From contig NZ_JAIQZB010000001.1 of NCBI RefSeq assembly GCF_020164555.1, positions 1-64,000 of the forward strand: a stretch of DNA of 64,000 nucleotides, read 5' to 3'. This document shows positions 43,008 to 59,340 of the stretch, in pieces; the first letter of the stretch is position 1, and each line of letters opens with the position of its first letter. A program made the position numbers and the translations under genes. Under the pieces are notes generated by a model. That model was given only the letters and a program-made list of their open reading frames with translations, did not search any database and had not been told where the DNA came from. This DNA is from Salegentibacter lacus. GTDB lineage: Bacteria > Bacteroidota > Bacteroidia > Flavobacteriales > Flavobacteriaceae.

Positions 43008-43028
43008 AAGCGGGAAAGAATTCTTTCT
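43008..43028 (-). terminator. Expression-platform hairpin of the metH SAM-I riboswitch
   Basis: GAAAGAATTCTTTC (43015-43028) is a perfect palindrome, followed on the minus strand by CCGCTTC and seven T. It comes directly after the aptamer and could end transcription when SAM is bound. Confidence 0.5.
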
Positions 43029-43029
43029 T

Positions 43030-43134
43030 GTTATCTATCTGCGCCAAAAGCGAAGTAGAATGTAGCACCTTCTCCCATTACAGGAGGGTTGCCAAGGTTT
43101 CAACGGGTCTATTCCCTCAACCTTTCTTGATAAC
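43030..43134 (-). promoter_or_regulatory. SAM-I (S-box) riboswitch upstream of metH
   Basis: The minus strand contains the S-box core in order: TTATCAAGAAAGG (P1 and AGA turn), GAGGGAATAGACCCG, TTGAAACCTTGGCAACC, a GGAG hairpin, AAGGTGCTACATTC, a short stem and AGATAGATAAC closing P1. It senses S-adenosylmethionine and would shut off metH when SAM is plentiful. Confidence 0.92.
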
Positions 43135-43329
43135 GATGTTATAAACAATGAACTTGAACCAGCAAATATACGGCACAGCCTTTTAAATGCAAGGCCCGGG
43201 AGTAATTTTTATGAATTATGTATTTAATAGGATTTCCAGAATTATATTTTCAGAAAAATAGAAAAAACAATACTTAAAAATTAAAGAATGCTCCTAAAGC
43301 AGGCTTTAATTTCCATATTTTCTATAGTA

Positions 43330-57110: not shown

Positions 57111-58403
57111 TTATACCAGTGCTTTTTTCTGAATTTTAGCAAAAGCCTCTTTTAGGTCTGCTTTTAAATCTTCTACAGCTTCTAAACCTACCGATATACG
57201 AATAAGATCTTGCGTAACTCCGGCGGTTGCCTGTTGTTTTTCGTCCAGTTGCTGATGCGTGGTGCTTGCAGGATGAATTATCAATGATTTAGTATCTCCT
57301 ATATTAGCAACCAGGGAGAAAAGTTTGGTTTCATCTGCCACAACTTTAGCCGATTCAAAACCGCCTTCTACTCCAAAAGTAACCACGCCACTTTGCCCTT
57401 TTGGAAGGTATTCTTTGGCGAGTTTATTATACTTGCTGCTTTCCAGCCCGGGATAATTTACCCATTTCACTTCTTCCTGCTGCTCCAGCCAGGTGGCGAG
57501 CTCTAAAGCATTTTCACTATGCTGTTTTATTCTAATTTCCAGGGTTTCCAAACCTTGTATAATCTGAAATGCGTTATACGGGCTTAATGCCGCACCGTGA
57601 TCACGTAAACCTTCAATTCTAACCTTGGCAATAAAAGCGGCTTCCTTTAAAGCTTCGTGGTAAACGAGTCCGTGATATCCCGGCGAAGGTTCGGTGAATT
57701 CAGGAAATTTTCCATTTGCCCAGTTAAAATTACCGGCATCTATAATGGCTCCTCCAAGGGAAGTTCCGTTACCGCTAATATATTTAGTAAGCGATTCTAT
57801 AACAATATCGGCTCCGTGTTCAATAGGTTTTAAAAGTGATGGCGTCGCAACCGTATTATCCACTATAAATGGAACTTTAAGCGCATTAGCTTGTGCAGAA
57901 ATTGCTTTAAGATCTAAGACATCTAATTTTGGATTCCCCAGTGATTCCACGAAAATTGCACGAGTATTTTCCTTTGCTGCCTTTTTAAAATTCTCTGGAT
58001 TCTCGGGATCTACGAAAGTGGTAGTAATTCCAAATCGCGGTAAAGTCACACTCAGGAGATTGTATGTACCGCCATATAAGCTACTGGAAGCTACAATATG
58101 ATCACCGGATTTTAAAAGCGTTAAAAGTGTGGTATTAATTGCTGCTGTTCCTGATGCAGTAACTACCGCTGCAATTCCGCCTTCCAGCGCTGCAAGGCGT
58201 TGTTCCAGGATATCGTTAGTAGGGTTATTTAAACGGGTATAAATGTAACCGGGTTCTGCGAGTGAAAATAGGTTGGCAGCGTGATCTGAATTATTAAAAA
58301 CATAAGAAGTTGTTTGGTAAATAGGCACCGCCCTTGTACCTCCGTTTTCTTTTGTATCGTGACCTGCGTGTAATGCGTTTGTTGAAAATTTTTGAGTACT
58401 CAT
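57111..58403 (-). CDS. metY: O-acetylhomoserine sulfhydrylase
   Basis: A 430-residue PLP enzyme that makes homocysteine from O-acetylhomoserine and sulfide. Marks: FSTNALHAGHDTKENGGTRAVPIYQTTSYVF, the PLP lysine in IESLTKYISGNGTSLGG, and SLIIHPASTTHQQLDEKQ. Length ~430 fits MetY rather than MetB/MetZ (~380-390). It is the first enzyme gene of the operon, preceded by two Met-rich leader peptides with terminators. Confidence 0.93.
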   Translation of the reverse strand: MSTQKFSTNALHAGHDTKENGGTRAVPIYQTTSYVFNNSDHAANLFSLAEPGYIYTRLNNPTNDILEQRLAALEGGIAAVVTASGTAAINTTLLTLLKSGDHIVASSSLYGGTYNLLSVTLPRFGITTTFVDPENPENFKKAAKENTRAIFVESLGNPKLDVLDLKAISAQANALKVPFIVDNTVATPSLLKPIEHGADIVIESLTKYISGNGTSLGGAIIDAGNFNWANGKFPEFTEPSPGYHGLVYHEALKEAAFIAKVRIEGLRDHGAALSPYNAFQIIQGLETLEIRIKQHSENALELATWLEQQEEVKWVNYPGLESSKYNKLAKEYLPKGQSGVVTFGVEGGFESAKVVADETKLFSLVANIGDTKSLIIHPASTTHQQLDEKQQATAGVTQDLIRISVGLEAVEDLKADLKEAFAKIQKKALV

Positions 58404-58458
58404 AATTTCTAATTTTTTAAAGTTTTGCTTCGATTTTTGGAAGCTTGATTTTGTTTTT

Positions 58459-58483
58459 TGGATTTCCGCCTGCGCAGAAATGA
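58459..58483. repeat. 25-bp direct repeat, copy A
   Basis: TGGATTTCCGCCTGCGCAGA followed by AATGA. It matches 58762-58786 in 22 of 25 positions and contains a short inverted repeat (TTTC...GAAA). The two copies bracket leader peptide 2 and its terminator. Confidence 0.55.
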
Positions 58484-58495
58484 TTTGTTTTAAAT

Positions 58496-58534
58496 AAAAA
58501 AAGCCCCCTTAAGTAGCTATTACCAAGGGGACCT
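58496..58534 (-). terminator. Met attenuator terminator 2 (before metY)
   Basis: On the minus strand GTCCCCTT and AAGGGGGC pair, with an inner GTA/TAC step, and are followed by seven T. The first arm and loop include TTGGTAATAGC (58526-58516), which can pair instead with GCTATTGCCAA in leader 2. Confidence 0.88.
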
Positions 58535-58560
58535 TTAAATTGAACTCTAAACAAACTAAG

Positions 58561-58659
58561 TTACATCCGGTTTTGGCAATAGCATTTCATGTGTCGCATA
58601 CACATACACATCATCATAGTGCGCATCATCATAGTGTTTATTGCCTTAATATTTTTCAT
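58561..58659 (-). CDS. Met/Cys-rich leader peptide 2 of the metY operon
   Basis: A 32-residue frame begins MKNIKAINT, then MMMRTMMMCMCMRHMKCYC, and ends QNRM: eleven Met and four Cys. Three mutually exclusive pairings are visible: GGCAATA (58645-58639) with TATTGCC; GCTATTGCCAA (58583-58573) with TTGGTAATAGC (58526-58516, one G-U pair); and the terminator itself. This is a complete 1:2, 2:3, 3:4 attenuator. Stalling on Met (or Cys) codons would favour 2:3 and let transcription reach metY. Confidence 0.88.
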   Translation of the reverse strand: MKNIKAINTMMMRTMMMCMCMRHMKCYCQNRM

Positions 58660-58761
58660 CTTTTAATTTTTGTCACTCCCGCAAAAGCCGGAATCTTATT
58701 TTTAAACTTCTACTCTTTGTCTCCTTCTTCGGAATTTAATTTTCTATTTCAATAATTATTC

Positions 58762-58786
58762 TGGATTTCCGCCTCCGTGGAAATGA
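58762..58786. repeat. 25-bp direct repeat, copy B
   Basis: TGGATTTCCGCCTCCGTGGA followed by AATGA; partner of 58459-58483. A related fragment (CTCCCGCAAAAGCCGGAATC) lies at 58676-58695. Confidence 0.55.
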
Positions 58787-58800
58787 CCAATTTTTTGCAT

Positions 58801-58827
58801 AAAAAAAACCGCTGCGATTGGCAGCGG
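58801..58827 (-). terminator. Met attenuator terminator 1
   Basis: On the minus strand CCGCTGC (58827-58821) and GCAGCGG (58815-58809) form a 7-bp perfect GC-rich stem with a 5-nt loop, followed by eight T. GCAGCG in the leader just upstream can pair with the first arm instead. Confidence 0.85.
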
Positions 58828-58853
58828 CTTTTTGCAATTTATATCTTTTCAGA

Positions 58854-58925
58854 TTAAGCAATAGAGCGCGCTGCGGAAGTTCTCCACATCATCATACGCA
58901 TCATATTGCAAATTATCTGGTACAT
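58854..58925 (-). CDS. Met-rich leader peptide 1 of the metY operon
   Basis: A 23-residue frame reads MYQIICNMMRMMMW, then RTSAARSIA: six Met, with five in a cluster of six codons. It starts about 20 bases after a good promoter and is followed by terminator 1. The codons after the Met cluster contain GCAGCG (in TCC GCA GCG), which pairs with CGCTGC of the terminator. GCAATA near the Met cluster can pair with TATTGC at the peptide's end. The arrangement is a second, independent Met attenuator in series with leader 2. Confidence 0.83.
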   Translation of the reverse strand: MYQIICNMMRMMMWRTSAARSIA

Positions 58926-58944
58926 TTCGTTGTTTTGTTGGATA

Positions 58945-58977
58945 CAAATATAAGGGCATAAATTTTTAATATCCAAA
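58945..58977 (-). promoter_or_regulatory. Promoter of the metY operon leader
   Basis: On the minus strand TTTG (58977-58974), a 21-nt spacer and TATATTTG (58952-58945) match the Bacteroidota consensus. No second promoter is seen between leader 1 and leader 2, so one transcript should pass both attenuators. Confidence 0.65.
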
Positions 58978-59212
58978 CCCAAACTTCATTTTTACGAAAA
59001 AAAAATTATTATCCATTTAAAATGAATAATCAGGAATTTAAGTGCCGTAACAATGCTTATAATTTATTTTTAATCAAAAAACAAAAGACAACAAGCTCTA
59101 TTTCAGCAGTATAGAATGATCTATAAATATATCAATAGTAAAATTGATTTCCGAAACATTTAAACACTGCGAAAAAGAAAGTTAAAGAAAGTTTCAGTTT
59201 GGGTTATTTTTA

Positions 59213-59229: not shown

Positions 59230-59340
59230 TAATAGAGGGAAGGATTTGACTGATTGCAACCCTTTTATACTTTTAAGAAAGTGTAAGAAAAATGCTAAAG
59301 CAGTATCACTACTCCCTTAGCTTTTCGTCAAATTCAACCC
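59230..59340 (+). promoter_or_regulatory. Structured leader of metK, SAM-riboswitch-like candidate
   Basis: The leader reads GAGGGAAGGATTTGACTGAT, then TGCAACCC, a hairpin TATACTTT/AAAGTGTA, then AAATGCTAAAGCAGT. ATTTGAC (59246-59252) pairs with GTCAAAT (59328-59334), ACTG with CAGT, and GAGGGA/TCCC can close the base. GAGGGA, GCAACC and TGCTAA occur in the same order as in the SAM-I aptamer before metH, but spacing and P3 differ. It could be a SAM-I-clan variant. Confidence 0.5.

Follow-up and report, generated by a model that had tools for sequence, protein, structure and literature searches.

Two putative leader-peptide attenuators in series, with methionine and cysteine codons, ahead of the metY operon of Salegentibacter and other Flavobacteriaceae

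Introduction

In the attenuators of amino acid operons (trp, his, thr, phe, and leu), a short open reading frame (ORF) with codons for the operon's product, a set of RNA regions numbered 1 to 4, and a terminator stand before the operon. The SAM-I riboswitch senses SAM directly. In 2010, the authors of one study stated that they knew of demonstrated cases of such attenuators only from Proteobacteria and Actinobacteria, to which they added Firmicutes (PMC2965389, in the portion of the text available). By what the accessible part of PMC3641672 describes, the nearest described tandem is that of the mgtCBR operon of Salmonella, in which mgtM and mgtP are two short leader ORFs, each within an attenuator; the signals of the two attenuators differ, being ATP and proline, and their effects are independent and additive. 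In Actinobacteria, runs of Cys codons are reported in short ORFs ahead of cys genes; by the extracts of that article, a conserved terminator hairpin was not found in the Mycobacterium cases, nor a conserved RNA structure ahead of the methionine operons of Actinobacteria (PMC1262725). Strong clues to leader peptide attenuation are reported ahead of amino acid biosynthesis operons in Flavobacterium psychrophilum (PMC9723704, as far as the text could be consulted). No Met leader attenuator was among the results listed for the literature searched, whose scope left out most subscription journals, and the available parts of PMC7366714 and PMC4833913 contain nothing on Met leaders.

Here we describe two Met/Cys-rich leaders ahead of metY in Salegentibacter lacus, within a stretch of 64,000 nucleotides that was analyzed as a whole (the window). 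Our main reading, to which we assign a probability of roughly 0.83, is that they are two ribosome-mediated transcription attenuators which read Met and Cys codons and through which, one after the other, transcription from a single promoter must pass to enter the metY operon. This reading draws on sequence evidence alone: the anatomy of the locus, its conservation, the covariation of rival helices, a fixed spacing, a single promoter-like site, and the mutual exclusion with SAM-I riboswitches.

Results and Discussion

Anatomy of the locus

The earlier note on this DNA had proposed that a single promoter leads through leader 1 and terminator 1 to leader 2, terminator 2, and metY, and all of these parts are present on the minus strand. 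The first, TTG-N21-TATATTTG (58976-58945; score 9/9), resembles promoters of the Bacteroidota type and is made up of TTG (58976-58974), a 21-nt spacer, and TATATTTG (58952-58945); we infer that transcription starts a few nucleotides 3' of it, about 13 to 15 nt ahead of the leader 1 ATG. The Met/Cys-rich ORF of leader 1 encodes MYQIICNMMRMMMWRTSAARSIA (58925-58854). Its region 2 (GCAGCG, 58874-58869, followed by an inner TTGC) lies within the ORF, 15 nt from where the last Met codon begins, and forms the 5' strand of an antiterminator, pairing with CGCTGC of region 3 (58826-58821), with an additional inner TTGC:GCAA pairing; the earlier note does not mention this antiterminator. Region 3 is common to the antiterminator and to the 5' arm of the terminator 1 hairpin (58833-58803; core GCCGCTGC/GCAGCGGT), whose T-run extends to about 58796. 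A linker (58795-58660; 143 nt when counted from the end of hairpin 1 to the second ATG) separates the two gates and holds no promoter-like site, its best score being 6/9.

The second ORF, MKNIKAINTMMMRTMMMCMCMRHMKCYCQNRM (58659-58561), is likewise Met/Cys-rich, and the rival pairings of 7, 11, and 8 or more base pairs that had been ascribed to this leader were found as stated. Region 1 (GGCAATA, 58645-58639), just 5' of the Met cluster, pairs with TATTGCC of region 2 over 7 bp; region 2 (GCTATTGCCAA, 58583-58573) pairs with region 3 (TTGGTAATAGC, 58526-58516) over 11 bp, with one wobble position read as G.U; and region 3, the 3' strand of the antiterminator, overlaps one arm and the loop of the terminator 2 hairpin (58536-58499; core GTCCCCTT/AAGGGGGC), which has a stem of at least 8 bp and a T-run to about 58494. 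The first gene past both gates is metY, encoding O-acetylhomoserine sulfhydrylase (58403-57111; TIGR01326 above its cut-off). It is followed on the same strand by metX-like, homoserine dehydrogenase, metZ-like, Rrf2 regulator, DUF2061, and cysH-like genes (57055-52109), where the NCBIfam matches of metX, metZ, and cysH fall below their cut-offs. From metY on, the genes form a methionine and sulfur assimilation set; that they share one transcript is inferred and not shown.

A census of the short ORFs of the window (12 to 60 aa, both strands; n = 455) singled out the two leaders as the only ones with at least 5 Met/Cys in 8 codons: their maxima were 6 and 7, and the next best was 4, in one ORF. 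An exact search of the organism's own genome for the ATG pattern gave no match. We considered whether the ATG clusters might be alternative start codons and set this aside, since the clusters also contain Cys codons, which argues against such a role. In some relatives, leader 2 has more than one in-frame ATG, leaving its start codon ambiguous. As a separate observation, palindromes resembling REP elements (GGCGGAAATCC type, recognized by eye) occur on the minus strand in the linker (58660-58795) and after terminator 2 (58440-58490), and those around the gates differ among species.

Covariation of the rival helices

Across relatives, GCAGCG of leader 1 is replaced by GCAGAG or GCAGGG, and in most of the altered rows both partners change to match. 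A partner-swap test compared the helix stability of native pairings with that of random cross-species pairings in 34 representatives of leader 1 and 33 of leader 2. For the 2:3 helix, none of 20,000 random pairings equaled the native stability in either leader; for the 1:2 helix, the corresponding counts were 0/20000 in leader 2 and 3/20000 in leader 1. The first 14 representatives had given 0/20000 for 2:3 and a nonsignificant 1891/20000 for 1:2 in leader 1, and 10/20000 and 9/20000, respectively, in leader 2. Taken one at a time, most leader 1 sequences have a 1:2 helix that does not surpass shuffled controls. As a genus may contribute several representatives, the test reduces the effect of relatedness without removing it.

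Pairs were counted over 77 leader 1 and 76 leader 2 sequences (alignments A5 and A6 without L185, L186, L188, and L190, which are repeats, and L255; L260 was further omitted from A5 and L199 from A6). In leader 1, the antiterminator is 99.1% paired, with changes on both sides in 36 cells, and the terminator 99.7%, with 71 such cells; in leader 2, the values are 92.9% with 19 cells and 97.0% with 97 cells. For all four helices, no shuffle out of 500 reached these two measures. The count of pairs changed on both sides is unremarkable in shuffles for the leader 1 antiterminator (reached by 72/500) and for terminator 2 (107/500). When terminator 2 is moved by one column, 79.3% is still paired; the named structures were derived from the sequences of the window and are thus favored against slid registers. 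Folding of the isolated stretches against shuffles marked leader 1 as unusual (z = -2.37) and leader 2 as not unusual (z = -0.72). At the level of these alignments, the antiterminator and terminator helices of both leaders covary.

Spacing between codons and helices, and the proposed mechanism

The distance from the start of the last Met/Cys codon of leader 1 to the core of region 2 is nearly fixed, at 14 to 15 nt in 68 of 71 loci (15 nt in 57, 14 nt in 11, 12 nt in 2, and 9 nt in 1); 8 of 79 leader 1 units lack a recognizable core. Sixty loci have the core in frame 0 and 11 have it in frame 2, the 14-nt group being the one in the other frame. Thus, the core changes frame while its distance from the codons holds, which indicates that the RNA has been kept and the peptide has not. 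This bears on the proposal that the leaders serve to produce a functional Met/Cys-rich peptide, the RNA structure being incidental. Short peptides of this composition resemble metal-binding ones, and the Met/Cys clusters are indeed conserved; however, the C-terminal residues shift frame while the RNA core stays, the order and ratio of Met to Cys vary across loci, and the terminator and antiterminator strands covary, so that we consider a working peptide highly improbable.

Under the attenuator reading, a ribosome would follow RNA polymerase into the short leader ORF at each gate, which is Met-rich and, across relatives, also Cys-rich. When charged tRNA is ample, it would reach the stop codon and cover region 2, the terminator would form, and transcription would stop. 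Under a shortage of Met-tRNA or Cys-tRNA, the ribosome would stall within the Met/Cys cluster; region 2, left uncovered, could then pair with region 3 ahead of the synthesis of region 4, so that the polymerase would read on. The polymerase would have to clear both gates before reaching metY. Translation of the leaders, stalling of the ribosome, the response to Met and Cys, and a multiplicative, and hence sharper, output of the two gates are all inferences, with no experiment behind them.

The spacing expected of such a switch (region 2 free on stalling and covered at the stop codon) is found in both leaders if a ribosome footprint is assumed. With a footprint of 12 nt, 10 of the 14 Met/Cys codons of leader 2 in the window would leave region 2 free. 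A masking model with the same assumed footprint, applied to 26 units per leader, predicted for leader 1 that the 5' arm of the terminator is captured at 0.57 to 1.0 with the ribosome stalled versus 0.01 to 0.33 with it at the stop codon. For leader 2, the predicted values are 0.42 to 0.97 versus 0.19 to 0.54, with overlapping ranges (0.70 and 0.53 in the window). At full-length equilibrium, the terminator is favored in nearly every sequence whether the ribosome is stalled or not, and the switch must therefore be kinetic.

Conservation and distribution of the pair

Both the conservation and the covariance across Flavobacteriaceae that the earlier note named as a check of its reading are seen. 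The two leaders stand ahead of metY in all 15 Salegentibacter genomes examined, with the leader 2 model again matching in 15/15. Among 80 named metY loci, some of which are from genomes also in the Salegentibacter set, 54 have both leaders, 2 have leader 1 only, 1 has leader 2 only (at a contig edge), and 23 have neither (thresholds: from 63.8 bits up for the leader 1 model and from 55.8 bits up for the leader 2 model); genera with both include Christiangramia, Salinimicrobium, Mesonia, and Flavobacterium. The leader 1 model at an E value of ≤0.01 matches 355 of 397 family genomes; below about 50 bits it matches generic terminators, and only matches of at least 50 bits were therefore used in the family survey. 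On that basis, leader 1 was recovered in 34 of the 397 genomes (hand count), leader 2 at an E value of ≤0.01 in 29, and adjacent matches to both in 24 (hand count); in one further genome (G329) the two matches lie 3 kb apart, and in G313 and G021 metY is not directly downstream of the pair. The leader 2 model matched 14 of 196 order genomes and 11 of 247 phylum genomes, sets in which family members were included, with no match outside Flavobacteriaceae; these surveys used stricter filters, under which leaders of altered codons would escape, and the leader 1 model was searched in the family only.

The suggestion that one gate might also sense Cys does not describe the pattern, because Cys codons occur in both leaders across relatives (absent from leader 1 in only 7/79 units and from leader 2 in 1/78).

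Might only one gate matter, the other being a decaying or redundant copy? Single-leader forms do exist ahead of metY (L034, L120/L144, L143, L151, and L152). In some loci, each of the two leader models weakly picks up the other leader, as would be expected after duplication; such mutual matches fit duplication but also a shared composition. Against this, 76 of 81 loci keep both leaders after 11 loci repeating others were removed (a set built mainly from tandem matches), and both leaders, even though their sequences have changed greatly, retain covarying antiterminators, terminators, and their Met/Cys clusters. We therefore regard a redundant copy as unlikely, without dismissing it.

One promoter-like site for two proposed gates, and separated pairs

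Close pairs, with repeats removed, number 65 (15 from Salegentibacter and 50 others), and in 62 of them a promoter-like site scoring 8 or 9 of 9 stands ahead of leader 1. In 23 of 25 loci, TA..TTTG stands 26 to 29 nt upstream of the first ATG; the mean score of shuffled controls ahead of leader 1 was 6.31 (in the set before repeat removal). A separate promoter directly before leader 2 would have refuted the serial arrangement according to the earlier note, and in close pairs there is hardly any sign of one: among the 49 linkers of at least 40 nt, a score of 8 was reached in 1 and a score of 7 of 9 in 11. The linker score lies slightly above that of shuffles (5.47 versus 5.05, before repeat removal).

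Eleven loci (10 named Flavobacterium and one Flavobacteriaceae: L229, L231, L232, L242, L245, L246, L252, L254, L255, L257, and L263) are arranged differently, with a 948-aa ORF parting leader 1 from leader 2. The ORF is a TonB-dependent receptor by Pfam in L254, the only locus run. Leader 2 lies ahead of metY, some 3.2 to 3.4 kb beyond leader 1, and has its own promoter-like site in 11/11 (8/9, with shuffles at 6.63). These loci lend some weight to the notion that the leaders are separate transcription units with promoters of their own and do not act as serial gates. For the close pairs, however, the near absence of linker sites, the linker length of under 45 nt in 21/65, and the low score in the window make this very unlikely. 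The split pairs show that the modules can lie apart; in the window they are in series.

Some loci carry related elements elsewhere. In Flavobacterium, another pair of leaders, comparable in layout but with few Met codons, was observed (L254:7865-8200, L221:8639-8975, L247:7836-8158, and L250:6418-6760) ahead of a metX and aspartokinase region (genes named by eye). In other Flavobacteriaceae, the leader 2 model matches ahead of metX-, OsmC-, and sulfite reductase-like genes (L169, L180, and L181; by eye).

Leaders in the place of SAM-I riboswitches

We examined 106 metY loci outside Salegentibacter (L016 to L122 without L019, a locus cut by a contig end). SAM-I stands ahead of metY in 87, always in the metY sense, the leaders in 13, SAM-II in 2, and neither sensor in 4, with no locus having both SAM-I and leaders (Fisher P = 1.7 × 10−12, relatedness ignored). 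Of the four without either, L083 carries a short ORF with Met/Cys codons, but of a different type. The 23 named metY loci without leaders are excluded from this tally. Both the 106 and the 80 loci are best matches to the metY of the window and so lean towards its relatives. SAM-I was not found ahead of metY in the window or in the other 14 Salegentibacter loci (L002 to L015). By sequence, the leader pair occupies the place of the SAM-I found in most Flavobacteriaceae metY operons examined, and the alternation of leader and SAM-I ahead of the same operon clearly illustrates a sensor swap, even within one genus. Two species of one genus differ in this way: L034 (G121) has leader 1 alone before metY, and L060 (G319) has SAM-I. 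A SAM-I can also lie 3' of metY, as in one genome with the leader pair ahead of that gene (L023:2965-3070).

Elsewhere in the window, a SAM-I riboswitch (43028-43136, minus strand) stands ahead of metH- and metF-like genes (named by eye) and a SAM-II riboswitch (59230-59308, plus strand, opposite to the leaders) ahead of metK. Together with the Met/Cys leaders, from which both are no more than about 16 kb away, they bring the kinds of sensor in this pathway to three.

That the pair stands where SAM-I stands in most relatives examined also raises the idea of an unrecognized ligand-binding riboswitch or T-box at the leader position. A search with Rfam 15 (which includes T-box, leader families, SAM-I RF00162, and SAM-II RF01726) gave no match at gathering score at the leaders; with relaxed filters over 58400-59000, the lowest E value was 0.38, and the Thr and Phe leader models scored 18 to 21 bits against cut-offs of 55. 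Conservation is mainly in the helices and the Met/Cys codons, and such an aptamer or T-box seems to us barely conceivable.

Combining these strands, we entertain a fuller account to which we would give even odds: the two gates would be homologous, made by duplication, each reading both Met-tRNA and Cys-tRNA, with a multiplicative and hence steep response of the sulfur amino acid operon to a lack of either; in this lineage they would have replaced SAM-I, a metabolite sensor, by a double sensor of charged tRNA at the same operon; and in Flavobacterium the pair would have been split, with gate 1 alone controlling a TonB-dependent receptor.

Comparison with known systems

If the attenuator reading is true, leader-peptide attenuators also read methionine, with cysteine, and do so in a phylum with few described examples and in a series arrangement that is unusually conserved. 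It would open the questions of what a second, similar gate adds and of whether transcription and translation in Bacteroidota are coupled tightly enough for ribosome-mediated attenuation.

The claim that no tandem Met attenuator has been described stood in part: none came to light in the literature, but tandem leader-ORF attenuators as such are known from Salmonella mgtCBR, on the evidence of the available text of PMC3641672. That operon and the metY pair (the latter by inference) both have two leader-ORF attenuators behind one promoter; the metY leaders, however, share Met/Cys codons, and the mgtCBR operon is unrelated. Compared with the Cys leaders of Actinobacteria as given in the extracts of PMC1262725, the metY pair differs in having terminators and antiterminators. 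The clues from Flavobacterium psychrophilum concern the same family and mechanism, with no operon or amino acid named in the accessible portion of PMC9723704, and it is possible that the data of that study include an earlier sighting of the metY leader element. The SAM-I riboswitches of other Flavobacteriaceae share with the pair the genomic place and metY as the first gene, whereas they have no leader ORF. The trp, his, thr, phe, and leu attenuators resemble the predicted metY gates in the ORF with product codons, the rival regions 1 to 4, and the intrinsic terminator; the metY pair is set apart from them by Met and Cys as control codons, by two serial units, and by its Bacteroidota host.
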